Shown piece by piece: positions 31,303 to 57,165 of a DNA stretch of 57,165 nucleotides. Below the pieces are notes generated by a model. The model saw only the letters and a list, made by a program, of their open reading frames with translations. It was not told where the DNA came from and made no database searches. Location of the stretch: assembly GCA_024636445.1 (NCBI GenBank), contig JAGXHE010000011.1, positions 1-57,165 on the forward strand, read 5' to 3'. Position 1 is the stretch's first letter. Every line of letters starts with the position of its first letter. This stretch comes from Sulfitobacter sp. (GTDB lineage Bacteria > Pseudomonadota > Alphaproteobacteria > Rhodobacterales > Rhodobacteraceae). The position numbers were made by a program, and so were the translations under genes.

Positions 31303-31542
31303 ATGGCTTCGGACAGACAAAATTTGCAGGATGCCTTCCTGAACCACGTGCGCAAAACCAAGGTGCCCGTGACGATTTTCCTGATCAACGGGGTGAAATT
31401 GCAAGGCGTGATCACGTGGTTTGACAACTTCTGCGTTTTGCTGCGCCGTGATGGTCAGTCGCAACTGGTATATAAACATGCCATTTCGACGATCATGCCT
31501 AGCCAGCCGATCAGCCTGTACGAGGGCGAAGACGCCTCTTGA
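31303..31542 (+). CDS. hfq: RNA chaperone Hfq
   Basis: A 79-residue Sm-like protein that forms hexamers and helps small RNAs pair with messages. The Sm1 ([16 protein letters not shown]) and Sm2 (YKHAIST) motifs are clear. The short C-terminal tail is typical of alphaproteobacteria. The ATG at 31303, with AAGGTAAG upstream, is right; an in-frame start at 31261 would add 14 lysine-rich residues. The stop overlaps the probable TTG start of hflX. Hfq is known to influence nif expression in Rhodobacter, which suits its place beside the ntr genes. Confidence 0.97.
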
Positions 31543-36948: not shown

Positions 36949-36975
36949 AAAACACCCGCAAAGCGCGGGTGTTTT
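36949..36975. terminator. Bidirectional Rho-independent terminator
   Basis: AAAACACCCGC and GCGGGTGTTTT form a perfect 11-bp stem with a 5-base loop. It is A-rich on one side and T-rich on the other, so it can work on both strands, between the convergent dehydrogenase and SYLF genes. Confidence 0.85.
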
Positions 36976-42400: not shown

Positions 42401-42966
42401 TCGGGTTTGAATTGTACCAGTCGATGCTGGAAGAGGCGATTGCCAAGATCAAGGCAGGCGAGATGGAAGGCCTGAGTGAGGCCGACGAACAATGGGCGCC
42501 GCAGATCAATCTGGGCGTTCCTGTACTTATTCCCGAGGATTATGTACCGGACCTGGATGTGCGTCTGGGCCTCTACCGTCGTCTGAGCGGTCTGAGCACC
42601 AAGGTCGAGCTGGAAGGCTTTGCCGCCGAGCTGATCGACCGGTTCGGCACGCTCCCGCGCGAGGTCAACACGCTGATGCTGGTGGTGCGGATCAAGGCGA
42701 TGTGCAAACGCGCCGGGATTGCCAAGCTGGACGGCGGGCCGAAGGGGGCTGTGATCCAGTTCCACAAGGACAAGTTCGCCTCGCCCGAGGGGCTGGTCAC
42801 CTTCATTCAGGATCAGCGCGGGCTGGCCAAGGTCAAGGACAACAAGATCGTGGTGCGCCGCGACTGGAAATCCGAAGGCGACAAGATCAAGGGGGCCTTT
42901 GCCATTGCCCGCGATCTGGCGGAAAAGCTGGTGGCCGAGAAGAAGAAGACCCGCAAAAAGGCCTGA
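39496..42966 (+). CDS. mfd: Transcription-repair coupling factor
   Basis: A 1156-residue Mfd. The UvrB-like N-terminal module is followed by an RNA-polymerase interaction domain (LIVHVDHGIGRYLGME) and a RecG-like motor with Walker A GDVGFGKTE and DEEQ box (IDEEQHFGVGHKE). TRG motif and C-terminal domain are present. It frees RNA polymerase stalled at DNA damage and recruits UvrA. The start codon at 39496 follows the SufBCD-type gene by 34 bases. Its stop is 3 bases from the convergent transporter gene's stop. Confidence 0.98.
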   Translation: MTDPAHITVSGAPEGFDATRILAELARGVPVAHVARDDKRLAAMRDALRFFAPDVPVIVFPGWDCLPYDRVSPNADISAQRMATLAALAHGMPDKFVLLTTLNAATQKLPARSVLREAAFSARVGDRINDASLRGFLVRMGFVQSPTVIEPGDYAVRGGIIDIYPPGDLGPVRLDLFGDVLDGARRFDPATQRTTEKLDMIELAPVSEIILDEAAVTRFRQNYRLEFGAAGTDDPLYEAISAGRKHQGAEHWMAFFHDHLETLFDYLPDAAITLDDQVTPTRLARWDTIADQYETRRLAMLNRSKMDTVYKPAPPQGLYLDDAAWEATVAGRRVVQFRALAQSTGLGVVDAGGRIGRNFSPERQQESISLFGALASHIKAKLEGGPVVVASYSAGARERLSGLIEDEGLSETIPVTDATRIGKRGLHLVVWALEHGFEGPVDGKQLTVISGQDVLGDRLIRQPKRKRRAENFLTEATSLTPGDLIVHVDHGIGRYLGMEVITAAGAAHECLLLEYAENSKLYLPVENIELLSKYGHDEGLLDRLGGGAWQSKKARLKERIREMADKLIRIAAERALRRAPVLEPPPGMWDAFSARFPYEETDDQLKAIGDVIEDLTSGAPMDRLVVGDVGFGKTEVAMRAAFVAAMAGVQVAVIAPTTLLARQHFKSFSERFRGFPIEVHTLSRFVSTKQASNTREAMSRGTADIVIGTHALLAKNTRFKELGLLIIDEEQHFGVGHKERLKQMRSDVHVLTLTATPIPRTLQLSLTGVRDLSIIGTPPVDRLAIRTYVSEFDAVTVREALLREHYRGGQSFYVVPRLSDLPEIEEFLKTQLPELSYVVAHGQMAAGELDDRMNAFYDGKFDVLLATTIVESGLDIPTANTMIVHRADMFGLAQLYQIRGRVGRSKTRAYAYLTTKPRAKLTPVAEKRLRVLGSLDTLGAGFTLASQDLDIRGAGNLLGEEQSGQMRDVGFELYQSMLEEAIAKIKAGEMEGLSEADEQWAPQINLGVPVLIPEDYVPDLDVRLGLYRRLSGLSTKVELEGFAAELIDRFGTLPREVNTLMLVVRIKAMCKRAGIAKLDGGPKGAVIQFHKDKFASPEGLVTFIQDQRGLAKVKDNKIVVRRDWKSEGDKIKGAFAIARDLAEKLVAEKKKTRKKA

Positions 42967-42969
42967 TCG

Positions 42970-44178
42970 TCAGCCGCGATTTTCGATCCGGCCCATCCAC
43001 AGCATCAGCGCATAGCCGCAGGACACGAACAGCATGACGGCGATCATCAGCGGCACTGCGGTGCCGTTGTAAAACAGCGCCACAGGGGATGCGATGGCCG
43101 CCGCCGCCAGCGTTGAAAACGCGCCGATAACAGAGGCGGCCATGCCTGCGATATGCCCCATCGGGTCCATCGCGATGGCGTTGAGGTTGCCCACCGCAAA
43201 GCTGGCAGTGCAGAACAGTGAAAGCTGCCAGATCAGGAACAGGTAGAACTCGCCCGAAAGGTGCAGGCTGGTCACGACCATCATCGCGCTGGCGAACGCG
43301 ATCTGGGTTCCCAGCGCCCATGTCACCAGTCGCCGCATGCCCAACCGCACCACCACCAGCGCGTTGGTCAGACTGGCAAGGCCGGAGACCAGTGCCACCA
43401 GCCCGAACCAGAACGGAAAGCTGTCGCCGCGCGCGTAGACATCGGTATAGATCGGCTGGATCAGCATCAGCGTGCAAAACAGCATCGCCACGATCAGGGT
43501 CTGCACGGCGATTGACAGCCGCACCGTGGGGTGGCGGAACATTTCGATCACCGCATCGCGCATCAGGCGCAACCGCAGCGGGCGTCGCTCTGCGCGCGGC
43601 AGGGTTTCGGGCAGCCGCAGGCCGAGCCAGCCGACCGACACCACGGAAAAAACCACGAAGGCACCGAAAATGCCGCGCCATCCGGTGATCCCCATGATCA
43701 CAGCACCCATGGCGGGGGCAAAGGCGGGCACGAGTGTAAAGATCATCATCACGATGGACATGATGCGCGCCATGCCACGGCCTTCGTACAGGTCGCGGAT
43801 GATTGCCAGCGCCACGACACGCGGACCGGCGGCACCGAGGCCTTGGAAGAACCGCGCGGCCAGTACCATCGCAAAGGTATCTTCGTACCAGCCCACAATC
43901 GCGGACACGATATAAAGGCCGGCCCCCGCATAGACCACGGGTTTGCGCCCCAGCGCGTCTGACAGCGGGCCGGTAAAAAACGTGCCCAACCCCATGCCCA
44001 TCAGGAACACTGTCAGGATCAGCGCTGCCTGCGCCGCGTCGCCGCCCGTCAGCTCGTCCGCGATCTGGGGCAGGGCGGGCAACATCGCGTCGATGGAAAA
44101 CGCGATGGTGGCGAACATCATGCCCATCAGCGCGATAAATTCAACGCGACCGATGGTGGGGTCCTTGCGGGGGGTCAT
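42970..44178 (-). CDS. Multidrug efflux MFS transporter (Bcr/CflA type)
   Basis: A 402-residue membrane protein with twelve predicted helices of the major facilitator superfamily, most like the Bcr/CflA drug-resistance group (TGPLSDALGRKPVVYAG is the loop 2-3 motif; GLGAAGPRVVALAIIRDLYEG is typical of the subfamily). Substrates vary: bicyclomycin, chloramphenicol and others. The ATG at 44178 has AGGAG upstream; a frame to 44220 adds 14 unlikely residues. It is convergent with mfd. Confidence 0.92.
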   Translation of the reverse strand: MTPRKDPTIGRVEFIALMGMMFATIAFSIDAMLPALPQIADELTGGDAAQAALILTVFLMGMGLGTFFTGPLSDALGRKPVVYAGAGLYIVSAIVGWYEDTFAMVLAARFFQGLGAAGPRVVALAIIRDLYEGRGMARIMSIVMMIFTLVPAFAPAMGAVIMGITGWRGIFGAFVVFSVVSVGWLGLRLPETLPRAERRPLRLRLMRDAVIEMFRHPTVRLSIAVQTLIVAMLFCTLMLIQPIYTDVYARGDSFPFWFGLVALVSGLASLTNALVVVRLGMRRLVTWALGTQIAFASAMMVVTSLHLSGEFYLFLIWQLSLFCTASFAVGNLNAIAMDPMGHIAGMAASVIGAFSTLAAAAIASPVALFYNGTAVPLMIAVMLFVSCGYALMLWMGRIENRG

Positions 44179-44285
44179 CGGCTGTCGGCTCCTGAATTGG
44201 CGCGCAACGGCGTCATACACGCGCAGGTTTAACCCAGCGTTTTCAGGATCGCAATATAGCGAGACAGATCAGACAATTGCCGGTT

Positions 44286-44690
44286 TCAGGCGGCTGAAAT
44301 CTGCCGCTGAATTAGGCCTGCTGGCAGCAGATCAGGTGACTGCGGCAGGTAAACCACGCGGGTCAGATCCCCCAGATCGTCGAATTGCCCGGCCCATTCA
44401 CTGCTCATGGCAAAGACCGATACATTGTGGTTCACGATGTCCGACCGTTTCTGATCATAGCTGGTCTCGGGGATCACCCGCGTGACATAGCGGCAGGATT
44501 CCAGAATGTCGCGGCGCTGGGAAAAGGGCATCGCACAGCGTTTGCCCTGGATATCATTGAAGGCATCGGTAGAGCAGCCGACGATCAGGCTGTCGCCCAG
44601 TTGCGACAGGCGCTGCAGCAGGCGGACGTGAACCTGATTGAACAGATCGAAGCTGCCATAGGTCAGGACAGTAGTGGGGCTGTGTGTCAT
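44286..44690 (-). CDS. Nucleotidyltransferase-fold protein with degenerate HxGH motif
   Basis: A 134-residue protein of the glycerol-3-phosphate cytidylyltransferase (TagD/RfaE-like) fold, recognisable from TYGSFDLF at residues 10-17 and SLIVGCSTD. Normally HxGH follows; here the sequence is NQVH (residues 18-21), so the first His and the Gly are lost. The C-terminal ISSTS-type motif is also missing (LLPAGLIQRQI). It probably binds a nucleotide poorly or does something else. The frame is intact. The ATG at 44690 was chosen because homology begins there. It stands alone, with no polysaccharide genes beside it. Confidence 0.7.
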   Translation of the reverse strand: MTHSPTTVLTYGSFDLFNQVHVRLLQRLSQLGDSLIVGCSTDAFNDIQGKRCAMPFSQRRDILESCRYVTRVIPETSYDQKRSDIVNHNVSVFAMSSEWAGQFDDLGDLTRVVYLPQSPDLLPAGLIQRQISAA

Positions 44691-44958
44691 CGGGCCCGCC
44701 TTTGCATCAAGGCTATGGAACCGCTCGCGATGCTGTTGGCGCTCGCGATGCTGTCGGGGCCGTTTGAATTTCGAATGAAAACGCTCTGCGCCCTCAGAGG
44801 CGCTGCCTGTGTGTCTGCCATAATACCCGCTCAATAGATTATTTTATAATTATAGTCGGAGGCTTATGCCCCTCGTAGAGCTGAGATTACGGCATAGTGG
44901 CTGCGTTTTCCACAGTTTTTTACGCAGGTTTTTACGCAAGCGCGACAGGCTTCCCGGT
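44691..44958. other. Non-coding region with AT-rich core and short repeats
   Basis: No gene is visible in 268 bases. Features seen: a 14-base direct repeat GCTCGCGATGCTGT at 44723 and 44741; an AT-rich stretch at 44836-44859; one DnaA-box-like 9-mer TTTTCCACA at 44906-44914; and TTTTTACGCA twice, 12 bases apart (44917, 44929). Their purpose is unknown. Confidence 0.5.
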
Positions 44959-45606
44959 TCAGTCGTCTTGCGCGGACATCTCGGCGATGACTTTCGACCA
45001 CAATTCGGGTGGTTGCGCGCCGGGTACGGCGTGTTTGCCTGCGACGATGAAGGTCGGGACGGAGCTGATGCCCATCTTGCGGCTGTGCGCGTCGCGGTCG
45101 ATGATCAGCTGTTGGTCGGCATCCGAGGCCAGAAGGCGGCGCACCACGGCTGCGTCCATTTCGATGCTGTCGGCAATGTCGGCCAGCGTGTCGGCATCAC
45201 CGATATCGCGGCCTTCGACGAAATAGGCTTTGAACAGGGCGGAAACGGCGGCGGTCTGGCGGCCTTCTATACCGGACCAGTGGATCAGCCGGTGCGCATC
45301 CAGCGTGTTCGGCGTGCGTTTCATCGCCTCGAAGTCGATTTTCAGCCCAGCGGTTTTCGCGTGTTCAACCACGGGCGCATAGGCTTTCACCGCACCCTCC
45401 TTGCCACCGAACTTGCCTTCGAGATAGGCGCGGCGGTCCATGCCTTCGGCGGGCATGTCGGGGTTCAGCTGAAAGGGATGCCATTCGATCTGGAACGGAT
45501 GATCGGGGTTTTGCTCCATCGCGCGGTCCAGATAGGATTTGCCGATATAGCACCAGGGGCAGATCGGGTCGGACATGATATCGAGCTTGACGACGGCTGC
45601 GGGCAT
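44959..45606 (-). CDS. DsbA family oxidoreductase (FrnE-like)
   Basis: A 215-residue thioredoxin-fold protein without a signal peptide, so cytoplasmic. The active-site CPWC is at residues 16-19 (SDPICPWCYIG) and the cis-Pro loop reads SVPTF. It matches the FrnE/2-hydroxychromene-2-carboxylate isomerase-like branch of DsbA proteins; FrnE of Deinococcus acts as a disulfide isomerase in oxidative stress. AAGGTGA precedes the ATG. The CoA synthetase gene lies 66 bases upstream on the same strand. Confidence 0.92.
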   Translation of the reverse strand: MPAAVVKLDIMSDPICPWCYIGKSYLDRAMEQNPDHPFQIEWHPFQLNPDMPAEGMDRRAYLEGKFGGKEGAVKAYAPVVEHAKTAGLKIDFEAMKRTPNTLDAHRLIHWSGIEGRQTAAVSALFKAYFVEGRDIGDADTLADIADSIEMDAAVVRRLLASDADQQLIIDRDAHSRKMGISSVPTFIVAGKHAVPGAQPPELWSKVIAEMSAQDD

Positions 45607-45672
45607 CGGGGGTCACCTTGGTTGTTTTTTCGTCACATAGCGCGGTTTGCGCACGGATGCACCCCCAAGCAC

Positions 45673-47187
45673 CTAATGGGTGGCGTCGAAGTTGTCGCGC
45701 AGCTGGCGGCGCAGGATCTTGTTGTTGGCCCCGGTGGGCAGGGCGTCGATGTGCACATAGAGACGCGGGCGTTTGTATTGGGCAAGGCGGGTCTCGGCAA
45801 AGGTCTTGAGCGCATCGGGGTCCAGCGGCGCGGGGCCGGTGTAGAATGCGGCGATCACGCGGGTGTCGGCCTTGACCAGCACATCGGTGGCGGCGACGCC
45901 GGTGATGCCCTCGTGCGAAAGCAGCGCCTGTTCGACTTCGATGGGCGACACGCGGTAGCCGCCCGCGTTCATCATATCGTCGGCGCGGCCCAGATAGGTG
46001 ACCTGAAAATTGGCGTCCATCTTCGCCTCGTCTCCGGTCAGGAACCAGTCGTTCGCGAACCTCTGCGCGGTTTCCTCTGCAGCGCCGATGTATTCCAGCA
46101 TCAGGCCGGGGTCAGAGCGGTGCACGGCGATGATACCAGGCTGGCCGATGGGCGTCGGGGTGCCGGTGTCGTCGACGATGGCGATGTGACGGCCCGGCTG
46201 CGGTTGGCCCGAGGCGCCTGCGGTGGCCGGATTGGTCGGGCTGGCCGAGATGAAGGTGGAGCATTCCGACATGCCGTAGGCCTCGAACACCGGGGTATCG
46301 GTGGCTGCAACCCAGGCGTCGCGGATGCGGTCGGGCAGCTTTTCACCCGCGCTTAGCCCATGGCGCAGATCGGGCAGGGGCAGGGTGTTCGTACCTTTCA
46401 GCATCTGGCGGTAGACGCCTGGGGCTGCGGCAAAGATGGTGGCGCGGTGGCGGGCCAGCAGGTCGGGCAGGGCCTGTGCGGCAGTTCCGGGGGCGGGGAT
46501 CAGCGCGGTCGCCCCCAGCGTCCACGGGTCCATCAGCCCGGTGCCCAGCGTATAGGTCCAGTTGAACGCGCCCGCATGGCACAGCCGGTCATCGGGGCCG
46601 AGCCCGTACCAGCCCTGATGCATCATCCCCCGCGCCCAGATTGCACGGTGTGCATGGGCCACGGCACGCGGTTTGCCGGATGTGCCCGAGGTATAGATGA
46701 CATAGGCCAGCCGGTCAGGGTCACCCGTTGCGGCATCGGCGGGTGACAGGACGCGCATCGCTTGCAGCGCGTCCAGCGGGATGCAGCGCGCGTCGTCGGG
46801 GCAGTCCACGGCAGGATCGCGCAGAATGGCTGCGACAGGCAGTTCAGCGAGGATCGCCGCCACTTCCGTGTCAGTCAGCGCCGCCGAGGTCGGGATCGGC
46901 ACCAGCCCGGCCCAGATCGCGCCCAGATAGGCGATGGGGAAATCCACCGTATTGCCCAGCCGCATCAGCATCATCTGACCGGGCTGCGCATGGCGCAACA
47001 GCCCCGTTGCGGTGCCGCGAATGGCGTCCGTCAGCGCGCCATAGCTCCAGTCTTCGGTGTGGTCGCCGTGCAGGATGCTCAGTGCGGCCTGATCGCGGCG
47101 CGCAGTCCCTGCGTGCAGGACATGGGCGGCCATATTGAACGGCGCGGGGCAACGGGGATGCTCCCCTTGGGCAAAGACTGACAACAT
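45673..47187 (-). CDS. Class I adenylate-forming acyl-CoA synthetase
   Basis: A 504-residue AMP-dependent synthetase. The P-loop-like YTSGTSGKPRAV and the YGMSE motif in the core are clear. The domain hinge reads YLGRADDMMNAGGYRVSP and the C-terminal catalytic Lys is in GANNKILRR. Closest in feel to the benzoate-CoA ligase and medium-chain acid branches; the acid is unknown. It activates a carboxylic acid with ATP and CoA in the cytosol. The ATG at 47187 gives the N-terminus expected for the family. No beta-oxidation genes are adjacent. Confidence 0.92.
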   Translation of the reverse strand: MLSVFAQGEHPRCPAPFNMAAHVLHAGTARRDQAALSILHGDHTEDWSYGALTDAIRGTATGLLRHAQPGQMMLMRLGNTVDFPIAYLGAIWAGLVPIPTSAALTDTEVAAILAELPVAAILRDPAVDCPDDARCIPLDALQAMRVLSPADAATGDPDRLAYVIYTSGTSGKPRAVAHAHRAIWARGMMHQGWYGLGPDDRLCHAGAFNWTYTLGTGLMDPWTLGATALIPAPGTAAQALPDLLARHRATIFAAAPGVYRQMLKGTNTLPLPDLRHGLSAGEKLPDRIRDAWVAATDTPVFEAYGMSECSTFISASPTNPATAGASGQPQPGRHIAIVDDTGTPTPIGQPGIIAVHRSDPGLMLEYIGAAEETAQRFANDWFLTGDEAKMDANFQVTYLGRADDMMNAGGYRVSPIEVEQALLSHEGITGVAATDVLVKADTRVIAAFYTGPAPLDPDALKTFAETRLAQYKRPRLYVHIDALPTGANNKILRRQLRDNFDATH

Positions 47188-47325
47188 GCCAAATCGGTAG
47201 ACCGACCGCCGCGCCGTTGCAAGGTGCAGGGCAGCCGTCCTTCGGCGTTTCGCCCATGATCCCAGAGCCGACCAAACCTGCCAATAGCAGACTTGTGCCC
47301 AGCCCTTCGGCCGCGAGCTTTCGGA

Positions 47326-47805
47326 TCAGGTCAGAGTGCCGATGCGTTTCAAAAGGGCCTCAAGCTCGGTGGTCTCCATCGTCTCGAACGGATGATCCAA
47401 AAGCGCCTGTGTGCGGCGGTTCAGAATCTCAAAGGTGGTTTGAAAGGCCTCGTCCCATTCTGCTTTGGGAGCGGATGCAGGGTCGTCGGTACCCCAGTGC
47501 GCGCGGATCGGCGTGCCCTTCCATATCGGGCAGGTTTCGATCTCGAGCGATCCGCACAGGGTGATTACCAGATCCAGGGCAGGCGCGTCGTCGTCGGCAA
47601 ATTCGTCCCAGCTTTTGGAGCGTGCGGATGTGTCCATCTCCATCTCGGTCAGCAGCTTCAACGCGTGCGGATGGACGCGCCCCGCAGGTCGAGAGCCCGC
47701 GGAAAAGGCTTGGATGCGGCCGATACCGGCATCATTGAGGATGGATTCCAGCAAGATCGAGCGGGCCGCGTTTTCGGTGCACAGCACGAGTACATTCATC
47801 ACCAT
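47326..47805 (-). CDS. Low-molecular-weight phosphatase / ArsC-type arsenate reductase family protein
   Basis: A 159-residue protein with the LMW phosphatase P-loop as Cys9-TENAA-Arg15-Ser, where the common form is CTGNSxRS. Two further cysteines (LCGSLEIETC) sit where thioredoxin-linked ArsC has its redox pair, with one extra residue between them. An arsenate reductase role is therefore plausible but unproven; no ars genes are nearby. I start it at 47805 (GGGGA 8 bases upstream). The solute-binding protein gene ends 34 bases upstream on the same strand. Confidence 0.82.
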   Translation of the reverse strand: MVMNVLVLCTENAARSILLESILNDAGIGRIQAFSAGSRPAGRVHPHALKLLTEMEMDTSARSKSWDEFADDDAPALDLVITLCGSLEIETCPIWKGTPIRAHWGTDDPASAPKAEWDEAFQTTFEILNRRTQALLDHPFETMETTELEALLKRIGTLT

Positions 47806-47839
47806 TTCGTTAATCCCCGAGTGCAACGGTTCCGCGGCA

Positions 47840-49654
47840 TCACTCTTCCCACCACCAGACTTCGGGCATGTAATTCGGCCCGTCGCCATAGATCGGCAGC
47901 ACTTCGGGGTGTTTCATCTCTTTGACATGGGCGATGCGTCCTTCGGTGAATTGCCAGAAGGGGATCACATAGCGCCCCGCAGTCAATACCCGGTCCAGCG
48001 CGCGGGTGGCCGAGACGAACTGTTCCTGTCCTTCTGCCCCCAGCATCGCGTCGATCATCGCATCGACTGCCGGGCTTGCGATGCCGGGCAGGTTGCGCGA
48101 GCCTTCGGCCGCGGCCGCCTCGCTGCTCCAGTAATAGCGCTGTTCGTTGCCGGGTGACAGCGACAGGGCGCGGCGGAAATAGGTCATGTCGAAATCGAAA
48201 CTGTTGGTGCGCGCCAGAAACTGCGCGTCGTCCACGGTTTCGATGCCGGCAGTGATGCCCAGCCGCGCCAGAGCGCCCACGTAGATGTCCGCGATGGCGA
48301 TGTTTTCGGTACTGCCCTTGGGCAACAGGATGTCGAAGGTAAACGGCGTGCCGTCGGGGCCGCGCAGGGTGCCCCCGTCGGCGGAAAATCCGGCCTCCTG
48401 CAACAGGTTGGTCGCCGCGCGCAGGTTGTCGCGGTTGCGGGCAGTGCCGTCCGAGACGGGCAGGGCGTAGCCGTCAAGCGTGCCTTCGGGCAACTCTGCC
48501 GCAAAGGGTTCGAGCAAGGCCGCCACCTCAGGCCCCGCTGGCCCTTCCTGCATCGAAAGGACGGAGTTCGAGTAATACGAGGTGATGCGGGGCTGCGCGC
48601 CCCCGGTCAGCGTGTCGTTGATGTATTCAAAGTTGAATGCATGGATCAGCGCCGCCCGTACCCGCCAGTCGTCAAAGGGCGCGCGGCGGGTGTTCATCGC
48701 AAGGCCGGTCATGCCCGATGGTTTGCCATGCGGAATCTCGGACTGCACCACAGCGCCGCTGAGCGCGCGGGGGAAATTGTATTGCGAGGTCCAGCTTTCA
48801 GCGTTGAATTCGCGAATGGCGGAAATCTCTCCCGCCTTGAAGCCTTCGAGCAGCACAGTGCCGTCGCCGTAGAAATCGATACGGATGTTGTCGAAATTGT
48901 GGGTGCCCCGACGCACGGGCACATCCGCGCCCCAGTAATCGGGGTTGCGGGTCAGTTGCACAAACCGTCCGCCCTCGTATCTGCTGACCACATAGGGTCC
49001 GCTGCCAAGGGGCACGTCAGCAAGCGGCGCACTGGCGAAATCGCGACCTTCCCACTGCGCTTTGCTGAGGATCGGGCGCATCCCTGCCAACAATGCCAAC
49101 TCGCGGTTGCCGGGATCGAAAGTGATTTTCACCGCGCGCGGCCCGTCTTTGGTGATCGAGGTAATCTGCGCCCACAGGCCGTGATATCTCGGGTGCCCTT
49201 CGGTGCCGAGCGTCTCGTAGCTCCAGATCACGTCCTCGATGGTGACGGGGGTTCCGTCAGAGAACGCCGCCTCGGGGCGCAGCACGAATCGCACTTCAGT
49301 GCGGTCCTCGGATACTTCGACCGATTCGGCCAAAAGACTGTACAAAGTGAACGGCTCGTCCAGTGTGCGACCCATCAAGCTTTCGTGTGTGAACTCGGCC
49401 AGTTGCCACGGCGCGTTGCCTTTGCGCACGAATGGATTGAGAGAATCAAACCCGCCTGTGTTGCCCAGCACGATAGACCCGCCACGCGGTGCATCGGGGT
49501 TCACATAAGGCAGAGACACAAAATCAGGTGGCAGCGCAGGGTCACCATACATAGCTATGCCATGCGCGGGCTCGGATACCGCCGCACCACCACCGAGAAT
49601 CAGTGCCGCCAAGACGAGGTTGCGAAGTCCTGTTTGGAAAATATTCGAGCCCAT
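47840..49654 (-). CDS. Extracellular solute-binding protein, family 5 (peptide ABC transport)
   Basis: A 604-residue secreted protein with a signal peptide (residues 1 to about 32). It is the SBP_bac_5 fold typical of oligopeptide binding proteins, closest in style to YejA (YVNPDAPRGGSIVLGN, RIDFYGDGTVLLEGFKAGE). It should capture peptides in the periplasm for an ABC importer. No permease or ATPase genes of that importer lie in the window, so it is an orphan. A strong orphan promoter/hairpin unit faces away from it just upstream. Confidence 0.92.
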   Translation of the reverse strand: MGSNIFQTGLRNLVLAALILGGGAAVSEPAHGIAMYGDPALPPDFVSLPYVNPDAPRGGSIVLGNTGGFDSLNPFVRKGNAPWQLAEFTHESLMGRTLDEPFTLYSLLAESVEVSEDRTEVRFVLRPEAAFSDGTPVTIEDVIWSYETLGTEGHPRYHGLWAQITSITKDGPRAVKITFDPGNRELALLAGMRPILSKAQWEGRDFASAPLADVPLGSGPYVVSRYEGGRFVQLTRNPDYWGADVPVRRGTHNFDNIRIDFYGDGTVLLEGFKAGEISAIREFNAESWTSQYNFPRALSGAVVQSEIPHGKPSGMTGLAMNTRRAPFDDWRVRAALIHAFNFEYINDTLTGGAQPRITSYYSNSVLSMQEGPAGPEVAALLEPFAAELPEGTLDGYALPVSDGTARNRDNLRAATNLLQEAGFSADGGTLRGPDGTPFTFDILLPKGSTENIAIADIYVGALARLGITAGIETVDDAQFLARTNSFDFDMTYFRRALSLSPGNEQRYYWSSEAAAAEGSRNLPGIASPAVDAMIDAMLGAEGQEQFVSATRALDRVLTAGRYVIPFWQFTEGRIAHVKEMKHPEVLPIYGDGPNYMPEVWWWEE

Positions 49655-49733
49655 TTTGGCGACAATTCCCTTCTGCCCATGTTTTGTTAGACCCAGCGGT
49701 AACTGGGGTTTCAGGTGATTTCAAACTTTTAGC

Positions 49734-49762
49734 TTGGCCCTCGGCCTTAGATTGCTTATAAA
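49734..49762 (+). promoter_or_regulatory. Sigma-70-type promoter for the candidate small RNA
   Basis: TTGGCC (49734-49739), a 17-base spacer, and TATAAA (49757-49762) match the -35 and -10 consensus at 4 and 5 of 6 positions with ideal spacing. Transcription would start near 49769. Confidence 0.6.
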
Positions 49763-49768
49763 GGTCTC

Positions 49769-49844
49769 ACTGCTCGATAGGTTTCTTGCCTGTATGAAAC
49801 CTGCCTCAATAACTTAACGCCAGCTTCGTGCTGGCGTTTTTTTT
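49769..49844 (+). ncRNA. Candidate small RNA (about 76 nt) or leader attenuator of bdhA
   Basis: From the predicted start the transcript would have a 7-bp hairpin AGGTTTC / GAAACCT (10-base loop, 49779-49802), a 13-base linker and a terminator hairpin with T8. No coding frame upstream on this strand needs that terminator: the gene to the left is divergent. The structure fits a free-standing small RNA. It could also be a bdhA attenuator, since bdhA begins 165 bases downstream. Confidence 0.55.
49816..49844 (+). terminator. Strong Rho-independent terminator
   Basis: AACGCCAGC and GCTGGCGTT form a perfect 9-bp stem with a TTCGT loop, and eight T residues cover the end. It is the strongest intrinsic terminator in the window and has no protein gene before it on the plus strand. 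Confidence 0.9.
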
Positions 49845-50009
49845 GGTCGGTTCGCTTGGTTGGGCGACATCTATCCGATTTTCCGCGATTGGTTCTCAGG
49901 GCAATGCCGATATGCGCACGGAACTGCGCCTTGCGGTTTGACGTTCCTTTTGCATGTGCAGCATGGCAAGGTTGGCTCAGCACATCAAAAACCTCGAAGG
50001 AGCATTCTC

Positions 50010-50795
50010 ATGGCCATCACAATGGACCTGTCCGGCAAAACCGCAGTTATTACCGGGTCCAACTCGGGCATCGGCCTCGGCGTCGCCAAGGAACTGGGCA
50101 AGGCGGGGGCCAATCTGGTTCTCAACAGTTTCACCGATTCCGAAGAAGATCACGAACTCGCCGCCGAACTGGCGCGCAGCCTGGGTGTCGATGTCCGCTA
50201 TATTCAGGCCGACATGTCCAAGGCCGAAGAGTGCCGCCGTCTGGTCGTGGCCGCCGGTGGCTGCGATATCCTGGTGAACAACGCAGGCATCCAGCACGTC
50301 GCCGCGATCGAGGAATTTCCCATCGACAAATGGAACGCGATCATCGCGATCAACCTCAGCTCGGCCTTTCACACCAGCGCCGTCGCCGTCACCGGTATGC
50401 GCGAACGCGGTTGGGGCCGCATCATCAACATCGCCTCGGCCCATGGTCTGACGGCGTCGCCCTACAAATCGGCCTATGTGGCGGCGAAGCATGGCATCGT
50501 CGGGCTGACCAAGACCGTCGCACTTGAAACCGCCACCGATCCGATCACTGCCAATGCGATCTGTCCGGGCTACGTGCTGACCCCCATCGTCGAAAAGCAG
50601 ATCCCCGACACGATGAAGGAATATAAAATGACCCGCGAAGAGGTGATCCAAAACGTGATGCTGACGCGCCAGCCCAGCAAGGAATTCGCCACCACCGAAC
50701 AGATGGGCGGCACCGCCGTGTTCCTGTGTTCCGACGCCGCGGCCCAGATCACCGGCACCACCATCAGCGTCGATGGCGGCTGGACCGCCCTTTGA
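50010..50795 (+). CDS. bdhA: 3-hydroxybutyrate dehydrogenase
   Basis: A 261-residue short-chain dehydrogenase that interconverts 3-hydroxybutyrate and acetoacetate with NAD. The cofactor motif is TGSNSGIGLG and NNAGIQHVA is the structural block. The catalytic Ser is in NIASAHG and the Tyr/Lys pair in SAYVAAKHG. ICPGYVLTPIVEKQIPD is typical of BdhA and separates it from other SDRs. GAAGGAG precedes the ATG at 50010; the longer open frame to 49860 covers the non-coding leader. A patatin gene follows, separated by a dispersed repeat. Confidence 0.93.
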   Translation: MAITMDLSGKTAVITGSNSGIGLGVAKELGKAGANLVLNSFTDSEEDHELAAELARSLGVDVRYIQADMSKAEECRRLVVAAGGCDILVNNAGIQHVAAIEEFPIDKWNAIIAINLSSAFHTSAVAVTGMRERGWGRIINIASAHGLTASPYKSAYVAAKHGIVGLTKTVALETATDPITANAICPGYVLTPIVEKQIPDTMKEYKMTREEVIQNVMLTRQPSKEFATTEQMGGTAVFLCSDAAAQITGTTISVDGGWTAL

Positions 50796-50846
50796 TTTCA
50801 TCTTGCCCCTTAAACTCCCGCCGGAGGCATCCCGAAGCCTCCGGCG
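50796..50846 (+). repeat. Dispersed intergenic repeat, copy C
   Basis: Immediately after the bdhA stop codon: TTTCATCTTGCCCCTTAAAC, then TCC, and a perfect 10-bp stem CGCCGGAGGC / GCCTCCGGCG with an 8-base loop. The leader matches copies at 8778 and 16735. The hairpin ends 16 bases before the patatin start codon and may limit or modulate its expression. Confidence 0.75.
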
Positions 50847-50862
50847 CGCGCAAAGGCCACCA

Positions 50863-51894
50863 ATGACACGCAAACGCATCAATCTGGCTCTGCAAGGGGG
50901 CGGCGCACATGGCGCTTTCACCTGGGGCGCACTCGACCGTATCCTCGAAGACGACCGTATCGAAATCGCCGCCATTTCCGGCACTTCTGCGGGGGCCCTG
51001 AATGGCGCTGCGTTAAAGTCCGGCATGGTCAAGGGCGGGGTCGATGGCGCACGCGAGGCACTCGATGCGCTGTGGCTTGAGGTTGCGGGCCTGCAAGGGG
51101 TCGGGGTCGACAGCTGGATGGCGCCCTTTGGTGTGCGCAATGTCAGTCAGGCGATGGAGATGAACCCGCTTTACCTGATGGGCGAGATGATCAACCAAAG
51201 TATATCGCCCTATGCGTTGGGTCCGTTCTATTCCAATCCTCTCAAGTCGATTGTCAGCGCCTTTGACTACGACAACGTCTGTGCCGACGAAGGCCCGGAA
51301 TTCTTCGTCAACGCCACCCGCGTGCGCAATGGCAAGCTGCGCGTTTTCGCCGCCGAGGAGGTCACCGCCGATGTCATCATGGCCTCGGCCTGTTTGCCGA
51401 CGCTGTTTCAGGCGGTGCAGGTCTTTGACAGCCAGACCGGGCGGACCGAGGCGTTCTGGGACGGAGGGTACACCGGCAACCCGGCGCTTTTCCCGTTCTT
51501 TGCCAAAGGATTGCCTGCCGACATTGTGGTGATCAACATCAATCCGCTGGAACGCGAAGACGTACCCTATACACCGCAGCAGATCCAGAACCGGATCAAC
51601 GAGATCAGCTTCAACTCGTCTCTGCTGCGCGAGATGCGCGCGATTGCCTTGGTTCAGCGGCTGTTGGACGAGGGCACCCTGCCCGAAGAGCGGATGTCGC
51701 GGGTGAACATGCATATGATCGCCGACGACGATTTGATGAACGATCTGTCGGTGGCCACCAAAACAGTGCCCAACGGCTATGTTCTGGGGCGTCTCAAGGA
51801 GGCGGGCCGTGCGGCGGCGGATGGCTTTCTGGACCAGCACTTCGACGATCTGGGCCAACGCTCCAGCATCGACATGCGGGCGATGTACGGCTGA
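50863..51894 (+). CDS. Patatin-like phospholipase family protein
   Basis: A 343-residue cytoplasmic lipid acyl hydrolase. The oxyanion loop GGGAHG is at residues 12-17, the nucleophile Ser42 in GTSAG, and Asp200 in DGG forms the dyad. Bacterial patatins are phospholipases or esterases; neighbouring bdhA suggests a role in polyhydroxybutyrate granule turnover, an inference from position only. The ATG at 50863 has AAAGG upstream; an earlier frame from 50773 covers the bdhA end and repeat. The stop is 4 bases from that of convergent DUF502. Confidence 0.92.
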   Translation: MTRKRINLALQGGGAHGAFTWGALDRILEDDRIEIAAISGTSAGALNGAALKSGMVKGGVDGAREALDALWLEVAGLQGVGVDSWMAPFGVRNVSQAMEMNPLYLMGEMINQSISPYALGPFYSNPLKSIVSAFDYDNVCADEGPEFFVNATRVRNGKLRVFAAEEVTADVIMASACLPTLFQAVQVFDSQTGRTEAFWDGGYTGNPALFPFFAKGLPADIVVININPLEREDVPYTPQQIQNRINEISFNSSLLREMRAIALVQRLLDEGTLPEERMSRVNMHMIADDDLMNDLSVATKTVPNGYVLGRLKEAGRAAADGFLDQHFDDLGQRSSIDMRAMYG

Positions 51895-51898
51895 AGGT

Positions 51899-52606
51899 CT
51901 ATTCCTCCGGCTGGCTGGGGTCCTTGGCGTTCGGATAGACCAGCCCCGCCGAGATCACCAGTTTCGCGGCGTCCTCGACGCTCATGTCCAGTTCGATCAC
52001 GTCCTCTGTCGGGAAATACAGCAAAAATCCCGAAGTCGGGTTCGGAGTCGTCGGCACAAAGATCGACAACAGCCCGTGCGGCGCGCCCGAGCGGCGTGAG
52101 ATTTCGCCCTTGGCAGGCGTCGAGATAAAGCCGATGGCCCATATGCCACGGCGGGGGTATTCGATCAGGCAGGCCTTTTCGAAGCTGCGCTCGGACTGGG
52201 CAAAGACGGTTTCCGAGATCTGCTTGATGCCCGAATAGATTGACCGCACCACCGGGGTGCGTTCCACCATGCTTTCGCCAAAGCGCAGGACCGAGCGGCC
52301 GATCAGCCCTTTGGCCATCCAGCCGACCATGATGGTGAACACCAGAAAGATGATCACGCCGATGCCGCGCACGTTGATCTGCGAATCGCGCGCCAGACCA
52401 AAGTAATCCTGGATCAACCGGTCGGGATGATAGGCGCGCGGCACGAACGGCAGCACAAAGCCGTCGATCCAGCCAACCACCGCCCAGATCAACCAGATGG
52501 TCAGGCCCACGGGCGCAATCACCACCAGCCCGGTCAGGAACGACGCACGCAGACGCGCAAACATGCTGACCTTGCGGCGTGGTTCCTCGTCAAAAGGTGT
52601 GTTCAT
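51899..52606 (-). CDS. DUF502 family membrane protein
   Basis: A 235-residue protein with two strong helices (about residues 21-48 and 80-100), matching the DUF502 family of bacteria and plants. Conserved blocks include LTGLVVIAPVGLTIWL, VERTPVVRSIYSGIKQ and FLLYFPTEDV. The plant relatives (LIKE COV) affect vascular patterning; the bacterial role is unknown. It is convergent with the patatin gene. The gap of 112 bases to psuG shows no gene. Confidence 0.92.
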   Translation of the reverse strand: MNTPFDEEPRRKVSMFARLRASFLTGLVVIAPVGLTIWLIWAVVGWIDGFVLPFVPRAYHPDRLIQDYFGLARDSQINVRGIGVIIFLVFTIMVGWMAKGLIGRSVLRFGESMVERTPVVRSIYSGIKQISETVFAQSERSFEKACLIEYPRRGIWAIGFISTPAKGEISRRSGAPHGLLSIFVPTTPNPTSGFLLYFPTEDVIELDMSVEDAAKLVISAGLVYPNAKDPSQPEE

Positions 52607-52718
52607 CGGGTTCCCGGAAATAGGTGGATTAAGTGATCCAGCGGCAGACGGTTCAAAATAGGGGCTTTGCTCAGGGCCTACAACACCGACACTGCGGCTG
52701 TATCAAGCCCTTTTGCGG

Positions 52719-53627
52719 CTATCTGGTCAATTCGACAGCAATTTGTGCGGCCAGTCGTGCATTGTTGCGCACAAGTGCAATGTTTGCGGTCAGCGACCGG
52801 CCTTCGGTCAGCTCGAAGATGCGTTGCAGCAGGAACGGCGTGACCGACTTGGCGCTGATGCCTTGCGCATCAGCTTCGGCCTGAGCCTGTGCGATGATCG
52901 GGGCCAGCACGTCGGGGGCGATTTCGTCCTCGGCGGGGATCGGGTTGGCGATCAGTTGCCCGCCCGGCAGCGCCAGACGTGCCCGCATCTTGTGGGCGTT
53001 TGCAATCTCGGCGGGGCTGTCCATGCGCAGCGGCGCGTCAAAGCCTGCGCTGCGCGACCAGAACGCGGGCAGGGCGTCCTGACCGTAGGCGATGACCGGC
53101 ACGCCTTGGGTTTCCAGCACTTCGAGGGTCTTGGGAATATCCAGGATCGCCTTTGGCCCCGCGGCTACGACGGTCACGGCGGTCTGCGCCAGTTCCATCA
53201 GGTCGGCGGAGATGTCAAAGCTTTGGTCCGCACCCATGTGCACACCGCCGATGCCACCCGTGGCAAAGACGCCGATATCGGCCAGACGTGCGGCGATCAT
53301 GGTGGCAGCGACAGTGGTGGCGCCGGTGCGTCCTTGTGCCATGCACACCGCCATATCGGCGCGGCTGAGCTTGGCCACGTTTTTGGCCTGTGCCAGCGCC
53401 TCAAGCTGCGCGTCGGACAGACCCACGTGCAGACGCCCCGAGATCACCGCCATCGTTGCAGGCGTGGCCCCGGTGCTGCGCACGTCTTCTTCAACCTGTC
53501 GCGCGACCTCCAGATTTTGCGGATAGGGCATGCCGTGGGTGATGATCGTGCTTTCAAGGGCGACGACGGGCGCGCCGCTGGCTTGGGCATCGGCGACTTC
53601 GGCGGAACGGGCGTAGGAATGGGTCAA
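52719..53627 (-). CDS. psuG: Pseudouridine-5'-phosphate glycosidase
   Basis: A 302-residue enzyme that splits pseudouridine 5'-phosphate into uracil and ribose 5-phosphate. Family signatures include ALESTIITHGMPYP near the start, GGIGGVHMGAD and the C-terminal FELTEGRSL. It uses a TTG start overlapping the psuK stop codon (TTGA), with AGGAG 10 bases upstream inside psuK, so translation is coupled. Psu genes salvage pseudouridine from RNA breakdown. Confidence 0.95.
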   Translation of the reverse strand: MTHSYARSAEVADAQASGAPVVALESTIITHGMPYPQNLEVARQVEEDVRSTGATPATMAVISGRLHVGLSDAQLEALAQAKNVAKLSRADMAVCMAQGRTGATTVAATMIAARLADIGVFATGGIGGVHMGADQSFDISADLMELAQTAVTVVAAGPKAILDIPKTLEVLETQGVPVIAYGQDALPAFWSRSAGFDAPLRMDSPAEIANAHKMRARLALPGGQLIANPIPAEDEIAPDVLAPIIAQAQAEADAQGISAKSVTPFLLQRIFELTEGRSLTANIALVRNNARLAAQIAVELTR

Positions 53628-54511
53628 TTGGGTGTGTCTCCTGAAACGTAGATTGCGGCGGCTTCCAATGCTTGGGCCAGTGCTGCGTGGCGGTCGGCGC
53701 CGCGGGCTTCGGCGGCGATATGGGCTGCCATGAATGTGTCGCCTGCGCCGGTCACGCGGGTGACCAGCACTTGCGGCGGTGTGGCGTGGATGACGCCGCC
53801 TGCAGCGTCGCCTTCGGCGGCGTCTTGTCCGCCGTTGGTGACCAGAACGCGGGCAGCGCCCCGCGTCAGCAGGGCGGCGGCGGCTTGGGGTGCGTTGTCG
53901 AAGGTGGTCTGGCAGAGCAGTCCGGCTTCCTCGCAGTTCACGTAAAGCGTGCCACGGGTATTGTTGAGGAAGGGCGTCAGCCGCTCGGCTTTGCCCGGTG
54001 ATGCCGGGGCCACGCGCAGATCGGCCTGTGCCAAGGCGTCACCGCTTGCGATCTCGGCCAGCAGTTCCAGCGTCAGATTGCCGTCGAGCGCCACCAGCCC
54101 GGTATAGGGCGCAGGCAAGGTGCCATCGGTCAGCGGGCGCAGGATCTTGGCGCCTGCGGCCTCAAGCGAATGGGCATCGGCAATCGCCGCGATCAGCCCG
54201 TTGGCACCTTCGACGGCCATATAGCGGTCGGTCGGCAGATCGTCAGAGCGGTAAACGGTCGTGGTGATCATCCCGCGCGCAGCGCAGGCTGCCATCAGCT
54301 CGCAGCCTTCGGGATCTCGGCCTATTGCGGTCAGCAGCGCAGGCGTCAGACCAAAGCGCGCCAGCGTCATCGCGATGTTCATCGCGACGCCTCCGGGCAG
54401 GCGGGTGATCCGTCCCGGCACGTCCGAGCCTTGCCGCATGACCGAGGCAGAGCGCCCGATCACGTCCCACAGGACCGATCCGATACACAAGATGTCAGCT
54501 GACTTTTTCAT
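53624..54511 (-). CDS. psuK: Pseudouridine kinase (PfkB family)
   Basis: A 295-residue PfkB-type sugar kinase with the N-terminal GSVLWDVIG and PGGVAMNIA blocks and the C-terminal signature VTGAGDTFMAA, whose Asp is catalytic. PfkB members act on many nucleosides and sugars. The coupled psuG gene makes pseudouridine the likely substrate. It phosphorylates it at the 5' position so PsuG can cleave the product. No dedicated transporter for pseudouridine is beside them. Confidence 0.92.
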   Translation of the reverse strand: MKKSADILCIGSVLWDVIGRSASVMRQGSDVPGRITRLPGGVAMNIAMTLARFGLTPALLTAIGRDPEGCELMAACAARGMITTTVYRSDDLPTDRYMAVEGANGLIAAIADAHSLEAAGAKILRPLTDGTLPAPYTGLVALDGNLTLELLAEIASGDALAQADLRVAPASPGKAERLTPFLNNTRGTLYVNCEEAGLLCQTTFDNAPQAAAALLTRGAARVLVTNGGQDAAEGDAAGGVIHATPPQVLVTRVTGAGDTFMAAHIAAEARGADRHAALAQALEAAAIYVSGDTPN

Positions 54512-54584
54512 CCGCGCTTCATGGCCTGCGCCGCTGCGTCTTGCAAGATGTTCGGGCGCGCTTTTGCGCTAAACTATTCTGGTA

Positions 54585-55400
54585 CTATTCTGGCACTTTA
54601 AACGTCAGCGCAGCCCACAGGGTTTCCCACACCGCATCCTTGTCACCCGAATAGGGGCGCAGCACGACGGCATCCAGCAGGTATTCGCTGCCCGGTGTCA
54701 CCGGAATGCTGGCCACGCCATCGGCATTGGTGCGCGTCAGGGTCACTTCGACCTCGCCATCCGGCTTGCGGTGAAAGATTTCCACCTGTGCATCGGCGCG
54801 TGGCTGCGCCTTGTAGAGCACCTGTACCTGCATGGTGCCATCGAAGGCGGCGGAATAGGGATTGGTCAGGGCGACAAATTCGGTCTCCATCCCGGTGACC
54901 ATATCGGTGCCTTCGCCATTGCCCACTGCCACCAGCGATTTGACGAAACGGGCATAAACCTCGCGGAAATCCTGTTGGGGCCAACCGGCGGCGAGATGAG
55001 CGGGCTCGGCGATCTTGAAATCCTTATGTTCGGCGAAGGCCATGAATTTTTCCCACTCGGCGTATTTCAACGATGATTCAGTGGATTGATAGACCAGAAC
55101 CATCAGCCCATCGACGGAGGGTGCTGCGGCGGCCAAAGCGGGAATATTGCCCAGACGTCCCTCGACAGGCACGCTTGCCTCGCCCATGATCATGTCGAAG
55201 CGCACGATGTTGTTGGCGAAATAGGCCAGCGTCGAGCCGACAAATTCCTCGCCGTTCTTGAGGTCTGCGGTCAATTCGCCTGCGGTTTCGACTTGATACT
55301 CGTGCGGTTCGATCCACAACTCATGGGCAGAGACCGTACGGGCGCCCGCAAGGGGGCCACACAAGACAGCGGCGATAAACAAGAACTGGGACAGGCGCAT
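54585..55400 (-). CDS. DUF4198 domain exported protein
   Basis: A 271-residue periplasmic protein with a signal peptide ending at VSAHELW; the mature N-terminus thus starts near His, as in metal-related proteins of this family. It resembles DUF4198 proteins, which are sometimes linked to nickel or cobalt uptake. AAAAGG lies 8 bases before its ATG. That start codon shares two bases with the ATG of the divergent HupE/UreJ-like gene, so their promoters must lie within each other's coding sequence. Confidence 0.85.
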   Translation of the reverse strand: MRLSQFLFIAAVLCGPLAGARTVSAHELWIEPHEYQVETAGELTADLKNGEEFVGSTLAYFANNIVRFDMIMGEASVPVEGRLGNIPALAAAAPSVDGLMVLVYQSTESSLKYAEWEKFMAFAEHKDFKIAEPAHLAAGWPQQDFREVYARFVKSLVAVGNGEGTDMVTGMETEFVALTNPYSAAFDGTMQVQVLYKAQPRADAQVEIFHRKPDGEVEVTLTRTNADGVASIPVTPGSEYLLDAVVLRPYSGDKDAVWETLWAALTFKVPE

Positions 55401-56592
55401 GATCAAACCTTTTGCTAAATTAGGCCTCAAGCTGCGCCAAGTGGCGGCGATGTCAACCCTTTGGGTGTTGACGGTCGCGTCAGCGGGCCATGCGCACGAG
55501 ATAATGCCGACGGTCGCGGACATCAGCGATGCGAACGGAACCGTCACCATCCAGATGCGCGCCAACGTCGAGGCGTTTCTGGCAGGGATCGACATGGACG
55601 CCGTCACCGACACCGATGCCGCCGAGGAGGCTGAGGAATACGACGCCCTGCGCGCGCGTCCCCTGGGCGAGATCGAAGAGCGGCTGGAGGGGCTGATCCA
55701 GCAATGGAACAACCTGCCGATGGTGCGCGCAGATGGCACGGCGGTGCCACTTGCCATACAAGACTTCGAGGTGGCCGAAGCCCCCGATCCCGAAGCGCCG
55801 CGCCAGTCGCTGCTGACGATGACGGGGGAATTGCCTGATGGTGCATCTGAGGTCGTGGTGTTCTGGCCCGAGGGACTGGGGGCGTTGGTCTTGCGTCAAC
55901 AGGGTGTCGAAGAGCCCTATACCGGCTATGTCGAAAGCGGCAACGACAGCGGACCGATTGCGCTGGCCGGTGGAGGTGCTGCGACAGGCTGGGCGACGTT
56001 CGCGGGGTATATCCCCGTGGGTTTCGATCACATCCTGCCGCAGGGTCTGGATCATATCCTGTTCGTGCTGGGCCTGTTCCTGCTGAGCACCGCGTGGCGG
56101 CCCCTGATCCTGCAAATCAGCGCCTTCACCGTGGCCCATACCGTCACATTGGCGCTGGGGGCGCTGGGGCTGGTCACCATTCCGGCCAGCATCGTCGAGC
56201 CGTTGATCGCTGCCAGCATCGTCTATGTGGCGGTCGAGAACATCTTCTGGCGCAAGCTATCGCCGTGGCGGCCCTTCGTGATCTTTGGCTTCGGGCTGCT
56301 GCACGGGCTGGGGTTTGCGTCGGTGCTGGCCGAATTCGGCCTGCCTGACGATCAGTTCGTACCGGCGCTGCTGGGGTTCAACGTGGGCGTCGAGATCGGA
56401 CAGCTGACGGTCGTGGCGCTGGCGGCCATCGTGGTGGCACTGTCGCTGGCGGCTGCGCGCGCGGTCGAGTTGGAGGGCGACGAGATCTTTGTGCAGGAAA
56501 GCGACGTGCTGTTCCGCGCGATTTCGATCACCGGGTCGCTGATCATCGCGCTGGTGGGCGCGTGGTGGGTGGTCGAGCGGGTGTTCTTGTAA
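55399..56592 (+). CDS. HupE/UreJ-like membrane protein
   Basis: A 397-residue protein. A signal peptide (residues about 1-34) leads a periplasmic domain to about residue 190, followed by six or seven helices of the HupE/UreJ_2 type, with HILPQGLDHILFVLGLF and FTVAHTVTLALGA. These carry His residues that could bind a metal. HupE/UreJ relatives are nickel permeases, so metal transport with DUF4198 is a fair guess. The ATG at 55399 may not be the true start; an ATG at 55450 also gives a usable signal peptide. A hydrogenase is not present in the window. Confidence 0.83.
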   Translation: MIKPFAKLGLKLRQVAAMSTLWVLTVASAGHAHEIMPTVADISDANGTVTIQMRANVEAFLAGIDMDAVTDTDAAEEAEEYDALRARPLGEIEERLEGLIQQWNNLPMVRADGTAVPLAIQDFEVAEAPDPEAPRQSLLTMTGELPDGASEVVVFWPEGLGALVLRQQGVEEPYTGYVESGNDSGPIALAGGGAATGWATFAGYIPVGFDHILPQGLDHILFVLGLFLLSTAWRPLILQISAFTVAHTVTLALGALGLVTIPASIVEPLIAASIVYVAVENIFWRKLSPWRPFVIFGFGLLHGLGFASVLAEFGLPDDQFVPALLGFNVGVEIGQLTVVALAAIVVALSLAAARAVELEGDEIFVQESDVLFRAISITGSLIIALVGAWWVVERVFL

Positions 56593-56612
56593 CACCCGCC
56601 GCCCGGTGTCTT

Positions 56613-57165
56613 TCAGAGGTCGGCCAGAAGCGCCGTCAAGGCTGCGGCGGGGTCATCCTCGCTCCAGATTTCCGCGCCGATGCCGAAAAAGTCGGTGTAG
56701 GGCGCCAAAGCCGCGATTTGCGCGCGGTCCAGATTGCGCTCGGCGATCACCGGAATTTCGATGACTTCCGACCACCACTGGAACAGCTCTGCCTCGGCAA
56801 AGTCGTCGTCCTCGGCAGTCTTGCCCTGAACCGGACCAAAAGCCACATAATCCGCGCCTGCTTCGCCCGCCGACAAGCCGTCGTGGCGTGATCCGCCGCA
56901 GAACGCGCCGACGATGGCATCCGCCCCCAGCGCCTTGCGGGCATCGCGCACCGATCCGGGCAGGGTCAGGTGGACGCCGTCGAGCCCCAGACGTTCGGCC
57001 AGCGGCAGGTTGTCGGTGATCACCAGCGCCACGTCGCGCGCATGGGTCACCTCGCGCAGCGCGTCGGCGGCGCGCGACAGACGGTCGTCGTCGCGGGTGT
57101 CCAGCGCCAGCCGCACACAGGCGATGGGGTGCGCGTCCAGCACCCGTGCCAGCGCGTCGGGGAAC
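56613..57165 (-). CDS. thiE: Thiamine phosphate synthase, C-terminal part
   Basis: The gene enters from the right edge; 183 residues are visible and the N-terminus lies outside. The TIM-barrel fragment has DGVHLTLPGS, GADYVAFGPV and the late IPVIAERNL-like motif, matching ThiE, which joins the thiazole and pyrimidine parts of thiamine. Some usual ThiE residues differ (GPVQGKTAEDDDF instead of a GPV-PTxTK form), so a TenI-like variant is possible. It is convergent with the HupE/UreJ-like gene. Confidence 0.8.
   Translation of the reverse strand, partial: FPDALARVLDAHPIACVRLALDTRDDDRLSRAADALREVTHARDVALVITDNLPLAERLGLDGVHLTLPGSVRDARKALGADAIVGAFCGGSRHDGLSAGEAGADYVAFGPVQGKTAEDDDFAEAELFQWWSEVIEIPVIAERNLDRAQIAALAPYTDFFGIGAEIWSEDDPAAALTALLADL

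Follow-up and report, generated by a model that had tools for sequence, protein, structure and literature searches.

Positions 49769–49844 of the DNA studied here most likely make a 76-nt regulatory RNA equivalent to StsR, the stress RNA known from Rhodobacter sphaeroides. The DNA is a stretch of 57,165 nt from Sulfitobacter sp. (contig JAGXHE010000011.1, GCA_024636445.1), which was analysed at its full length and is called the window below. An earlier note, made from the letters alone, had pointed out an orphan unit of promoter, hairpin, linker and terminator; comparison with related genomes turns this orphan promoter–terminator unit into an identified regulator. We regard the whole explanation as highly probable, that is, an StsR gene with an RpoH-type start, whose product would pair with UpsM with the aid of Hfq and act as has been described in R. 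sphaeroides.

Locus layout

The unit lies between a divergent gene and bdhA, and the features relevant to it are as follows.

47840–49654, minus strand: divergent solute-binding protein gene, SBP_bac_5
49722–49733, plus strand: upstream box CAAACTTTTAGC (also written CAAACTTTTA), immediately 5' of the -35 element
49734–49739 and 49757–49762, plus strand: promoter, TTGGCC, 17-nt spacer, TATAAA
49769–49844, plus strand: small RNA gene, very probably StsR; predicted transcript of 76 nt with all 8 T counted (covariance model match, fold)
49770–49776, plus strand: StsR nt 2–8, CUGCUCG, predicted single-stranded; may touch the loop of UpsM as a second contact
49778–49785 and 49796–49803, plus strand: arms of hairpin 1, predicted, 7 pairs plus one U-G
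49787–49804, plus strand: StsR nt 19–36, from the loop of hairpin 1 and its 3' arm; complement of UpsM, the mraZ/dcw leader
49816–49824 and 49830–49838, plus strand: stem of the Rho-independent terminator, 9 pairs (6 G-C), with T run 49837–49844 (T8)
50010–50795, plus strand: short-chain dehydrogenase gene (bdhA), starting 166 nt downstream of the RNA unit

The promoter–hairpin–linker–terminator unit and its coordinates hold, and its conservation argues against chance. TTGGCC-N17-TATAAA is present as described, although "near-consensus" was slightly generous: the promoter agrees with the sigma-70 consensus at 9 of 12 bases and is missing from the list of our consensus promoter scan, because that scan demands T as the last base of the -10 hexamer. 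It agrees with the -35 TTG and -12 TAT elements given for RpoHI/RpoHII promoters in the available text of PMC10673084, and is probably RpoH-type. The predicted transcript reads ACTGCTCGATAGGTTTC... from 49769, a conserved first base A that stands 6 nt after the -10 hexamer. The box just upstream of the -35 element, which is exact in 62 of the 85 distinct sequences compared, is perhaps an extended -35 or an activator site. A search for CAAACTTTTANCTTGG (49722–49737) with at most one mismatch gave exactly one match per genome in 18/18 genomes, always at the StsR-type RNA and hence with no second copy of the promoter box in these 18, and the reversed pattern gave 7 matches in 6 genomes in the same search.

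The 7-bp hairpin placed after the promoter by the earlier note was recovered as seven pairs plus one U-G within 49778–49803. Folding of 49767–49845 yielded -24.8 kcal/mol (z = -4.61), and 0/200 shuffles were equally stable. The 9-bp terminator stem and its T8 tail are likewise present, and 49816–49844 ranks first in the terminator list for 40000–57165. The description "strongest in the window" is true only if T8 is counted, since two other repeats of the same window, 36949–36975 (11 pairs) and 38475–38499 (10 pairs), have more pairs and poorer T tails. The former, an inverted repeat flanked by A and T, may terminate transcription in both directions. All sequence tests run agree with an RNA of about 76 nt that stands by itself between a dedicated promoter and terminator; this had been considered the simplest reading, and the RNA is predicted at 49769–49844.

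The solute-binding protein gene is indeed divergent, and hfq, said to be present, was located inside the window at 31324–31512. The same genome carries an rpoE–chrR pair and two genes for RpoH-like sigma factors, of which one, at 369 bits, exceeds the curated cut-off and the other, at 271 bits, does not. At 52719–54511 on the minus strand, a gene of the Indigoidine_A family adjoins one for a PfkB kinase, as in pseudouridine breakdown pairs.

Distribution and conservation

BLASTN with 49700–49860 matched 37/37 genomes of the same family (best E 1.4e-79 to 5.5e-13); the 24 genomes searched from other families yielded no match in 6 cases and in 18 only weak ones, with E of 0.013 or higher. One genome (G001) had a weak second match. 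We then used a covariance model, R1, built from 30 loci. The search in relatives that the earlier note had proposed covered 295 genomes of the same family, each from a different genus, and found R1 matches in 289 of them; among the 260 of good quality, 258 matched. We infer that this family is Rhodobacteraceae because some of its genomes coincide in their match coordinates with named ones, such as G120 with Cereibacter changlensis (G552) and G135 with Sedimentitalea arenosa (G560). The genome of origin has a single match at E ≤ 0.001 (109.7 bits), and so does each of 17 named genomes, Cereibacter johrii included. Three genomes (G131, G210 and G315) have two matches each at E ≤ 0.001, which are possibly duplicates or redundant contigs.

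In a class-wide sample of 190 genomes, 31 matched R1 at E ≤ 0.1; family placement covers the sample except for 139 genomes that had no match. Scores above 100 bits were reached in three genomes only, all of the same family, and the other 28 matches scored at most 31.1 bits. In loci from 7 of these 28 low-scoring genomes, the longest stretch in common with the 39-nt core described below is no more than 10 bases. All genomes of an order-level sample matched (101/101); they belong to the same family, hence this sample contains no outgroup. As judged from these searches, the unit is strongly conserved within Rhodobacteraceae, in nearly every sampled member, roseobacters included.

The core of 39 nt is identical in 81 of 85 distinct 150-nt sequences, a figure that leans high because the 30 loci fetched were best R1 matches and the copies were detected via a loose pattern within the core. 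The seven genomes weakest in BLASTN were added deliberately to this comparison, and four of them differ from the core by one or more bases. Ahead of the core, CTTGG-N17-TAT is kept in 74/85 distinct sequences, at a distance of 6 nt in 73 of the 74. Two divergent copies (L288 and L290) read CTTGAA instead of CTTGG at -35, possibly a shift in sigma preference. Behind the core, single-base indels are tolerated. For a bacterial sRNA, a 39-nt core that hardly changes over such a number of genera is remarkable. As the unit is real and strongly conserved, it is neither a chance arrangement nor a new kind of RNA.

Complementarity to the mraZ/dcw leader

In BLASTN, an 18-nt stretch of the RNA recurred at a second site in several genomes. 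In the genome of origin, this second site lies on the opposite strand in the leader of mraZ, which heads the cluster of division and cell-wall genes, so that the RNA is perfectly complementary to its own mraZ leader. This leader contains the 18-nt site and a terminator-like hairpin, and corresponds to UpsM; in Sulfitobacter sp., UpsM would also be made as an RNA. Upstream of the leader, the genome has repeated TGGGAATTCATGGGA-like blocks, which we take to resemble MraZ binding boxes.

The gene mraZ was sought in 30 relatives (29 found) and in the 17 named genomes (16 found), and 45 loci were compared. The longest run complementary to the core was 12–18 nt at 38 loci, 11 nt at four and shorter at three; it was at least 15 nt at 27/45. 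Controls did not exceed 11 nt, which was reached at 1/45 loci on the other strand and in 14 of 900 trials with shuffled cores. Among the named species, all 16 mraZ loci have a run of 11–18 nt. The three low loci are G034 (8 nt), G022 (8 nt; the contig ends near mraZ) and G019 (9 nt). In the divergent genome G034, StsR and UpsM have both drifted, and the own duplex (-15.2 kcal/mol) is weaker than that with consensus StsR (-20.1 kcal/mol); thus, no compensatory change between the two RNAs was found there.

Probable identity with StsR

StsR (formerly RSs0827) of R. sphaeroides is described, in the accessible parts of PMC8307010, PMC11354728 and PMC8625941, as a 72-nt, Hfq-bound RNA under the control of RpoHI/RpoHII, which binds UpsM and the dcw 5' UTR and opens an RNase E site. 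It was first seen as induced by iron limitation and prolonged singlet oxygen stress, according to excerpts of PMC3413700 and PMC3688512. As far as the text of PMC5089854 was available, early termination within the 268-nt mraZ leader of R. sphaeroides can yield an sRNA of 206 nt, UpsM; cleavage of UpsM by RNase E, which depends on Hfq and on RpoHI/RpoHII, leaves a product of 130 nt. The RNA at 49769–49844 fits StsR in length, probable promoter type, UpsM complement and the copy in C. johrii, and is very probably its orthologue.

The link to StsR runs through two species closely related to R. sphaeroides: C. johrii and Luteovulum azotoformans have an identical 39-nt core, a similar promoter and terminator, and the same two neighbours. 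Their RpoE proteins are 98% and 93% identical, respectively, to the PDB RpoE chain used as query, which we take to be from R. sphaeroides. The rpoE mRNA near its start is a second target published for StsR. In a crude, accessibility-corrected estimate of this pairing, shuffles did better in 5/6 cases for C. johrii and in 1/6 for L. azotoformans.

That the identity rests on relatives of R. sphaeroides, and that the rpoE pairing is not clearly better than shuffles, would leave room for a conserved Rhodobacteraceae sRNA that shares the target of StsR and is distinct from it, either a paralogue or a second UpsM-binding RNA. We consider this very improbable. StsR is matched in length, in the UpsM complement and in the probable type of promoter, and the single R1 match in the genome of origin and in each of the 17 named genomes means that no paralogue was seen. 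The earlier label of a "new" small RNA is consequently dropped, as the RNA fits the published StsR. A literature search with fragments of the core found no related paper, and in the parts available of papers on other sRNAs of the group (including PMC4809877) we found no description of the RNA at 49769–49844.

With StsR as the preferred identity, the following sequence of events can be proposed. Under stress or in stationary phase, an RpoH-type sigma factor would start transcription near 49769, and the terminator would end the StsR transcript near 49844. With Hfq, StsR nt 19–36 would pair with UpsM, the leader at the 5' end of the mraZ/dcw transcript. As published for R. sphaeroides, this pairing would open UpsM to RNase E, leading to lower dcw mRNA and slower growth. 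The sequences show the gene with its promoter and terminator, the conservation of these parts and the complementarity; in Sulfitobacter sp., the RNA's expression, the sigma factor that reads it, its binding to Hfq and the cleavage with its effect are presumed to follow the published scheme.

Terminator, neighbouring genes and the bdhA reading

The earlier note had named an attenuator of bdhA as its alternative: the 76-nt RNA would be a terminated bdhA mRNA, with regulated read-through into the gene 166 nt downstream. The arrangement is frequent, with a BdhA homologue downstream on the same strand at 41 of 47 loci. At the other six, however, no BdhA homologue was found within about 1.5 kb downstream, and at 4 of the 41 it lies 304–1304 nt away and the unit is kept. 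SBP_bac_5 is the divergent neighbour at 46/47 loci; its linkage is tighter than that of bdhA, and the promoters of SBP_bac_5 and the RNA may be coupled.

The pattern of change within the unit also bears on this reading. In the alignment, 99.0% of the cells of the terminator stem are paired, and two-sided changes occur at 4 of its 9 pairs. The part upstream of it is nearly invariant and does not follow these paired changes, which leaves no room for a conserved antiterminator that pairs with the stem. The RNA is, moreover, strongly complementary to an unrelated leader, that of mraZ. With no compatible antiterminator and bdhA not always the next gene, attenuation of bdhA was rejected and appears very improbable. 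The eight pairs of hairpin 1 show no variation in 23 distinct rows; as they never vary, the alignment neither proves nor disproves their pairing, which is a prediction of the fold.

A small protein-coding gene or a functionless chance pair of promoter and terminator is hardly credible, even though a single consensus scan finds such sites at about shuffle frequency, because the identical core followed by tolerated single-base indels is unlike a reading frame, and the unit is confined to one family, in which almost all sampled members have it.

A possible second contact between StsR and UpsM

StsR nt 1–7 hardly vary, are unpaired in the predicted fold, and lie apart from the stretch complementary to the first UpsM site. 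CGAGCAG, the complement of StsR nt 2–8, occurs 31–44 nt beyond the first site in 39/43 leaders, these 43 being the leaders with a first-site run of at least 9 nt. In the reversed-sequence control, 7 nt were reached in 1/43, and the chance of a given 7-mer in a 90-nt window is estimated at about 0.5%. The order of both sites in UpsM fits one antiparallel interaction. The calculated cost of opening was small, 2.9 and 4.4 kcal/mol for two UpsM leaders and 0.9 kcal/mol for StsR, and the hybrid gave -10.4 kcal/mol. CGAGCAG lies in or near a hairpin loop of UpsM, inside a generally conserved block, and may for that reason be kept on another account.

When the lengths known from R. sphaeroides are projected onto UpsM of C. 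johrii, the 130-nt product starts at nt 77, a projected and not a mapped cut, which lies between the first site (nt 54–71) and the second (nt 107–113). We tentatively propose, at somewhat less than even confidence, that StsR grips UpsM at two sites, nt 19–36 on the 18-nt site and nt 2–8 on the hairpin loop, forming a clamp that holds open the intervening RNase E stretch, and that the pair is a co-maintained cell-division switch throughout Rhodobacteraceae. The two-site grip around the RNase E cut is a concrete prediction. In the literature searched, which did not cover the main StsR paper, we found no report of a second contact; relative to that literature, the present analysis adds this possible contact, the family-wide conservation of the pair and the lack of a match to any Rfam family at gathering score. 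Going by the parts of the R. sphaeroides literature at hand, our results indicate that the StsR–UpsM pair studied there persists in almost all of the family, including the roseobacters. The gene is thus a strongly conserved sRNA gene and very probably that of an RNA already known, for which the refinement of the mechanism is testable.

Comparison with known RNAs

A search of the whole window against Rfam release 15 gave no family at gathering score, and our alignment would therefore be useful for an Rfam entry. The best permissive match was RyhB (RF00057), with 20.5 bits against a gathering score of 55. RyhB shares the terminator hairpin and a short A/U-rich linker, but the resemblance is limited to the terminator and short flanks; the weak permissive matches mostly cover the terminator.

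Another RNA of the family is "intergenic 134" of Paracoccus denitrificans, which, in the portion of PMC5107571 available, is an expressed sRNA of 84 nt, conserved in Rhodobacteraceae and said to share its genetic context with an R. sphaeroides sRNA. The same portion also reports matches in Actinobacteria and Chloroflexus, which do not fit the RNA at 49769–49844. Compared by description, "intergenic 134" is a possible counterpart.

UpsM is the partner RNA and is distinct from StsR, being made from the mraZ promoter. StsR of R. sphaeroides belongs to another genus, and its rpoE pairing was not clearly reproduced here, but it resembles the Sulfitobacter RNA in size (published as 72 nt, against a predicted 76 nt), rho-independent end, UpsM complement and, probably, RpoH-type promoter.
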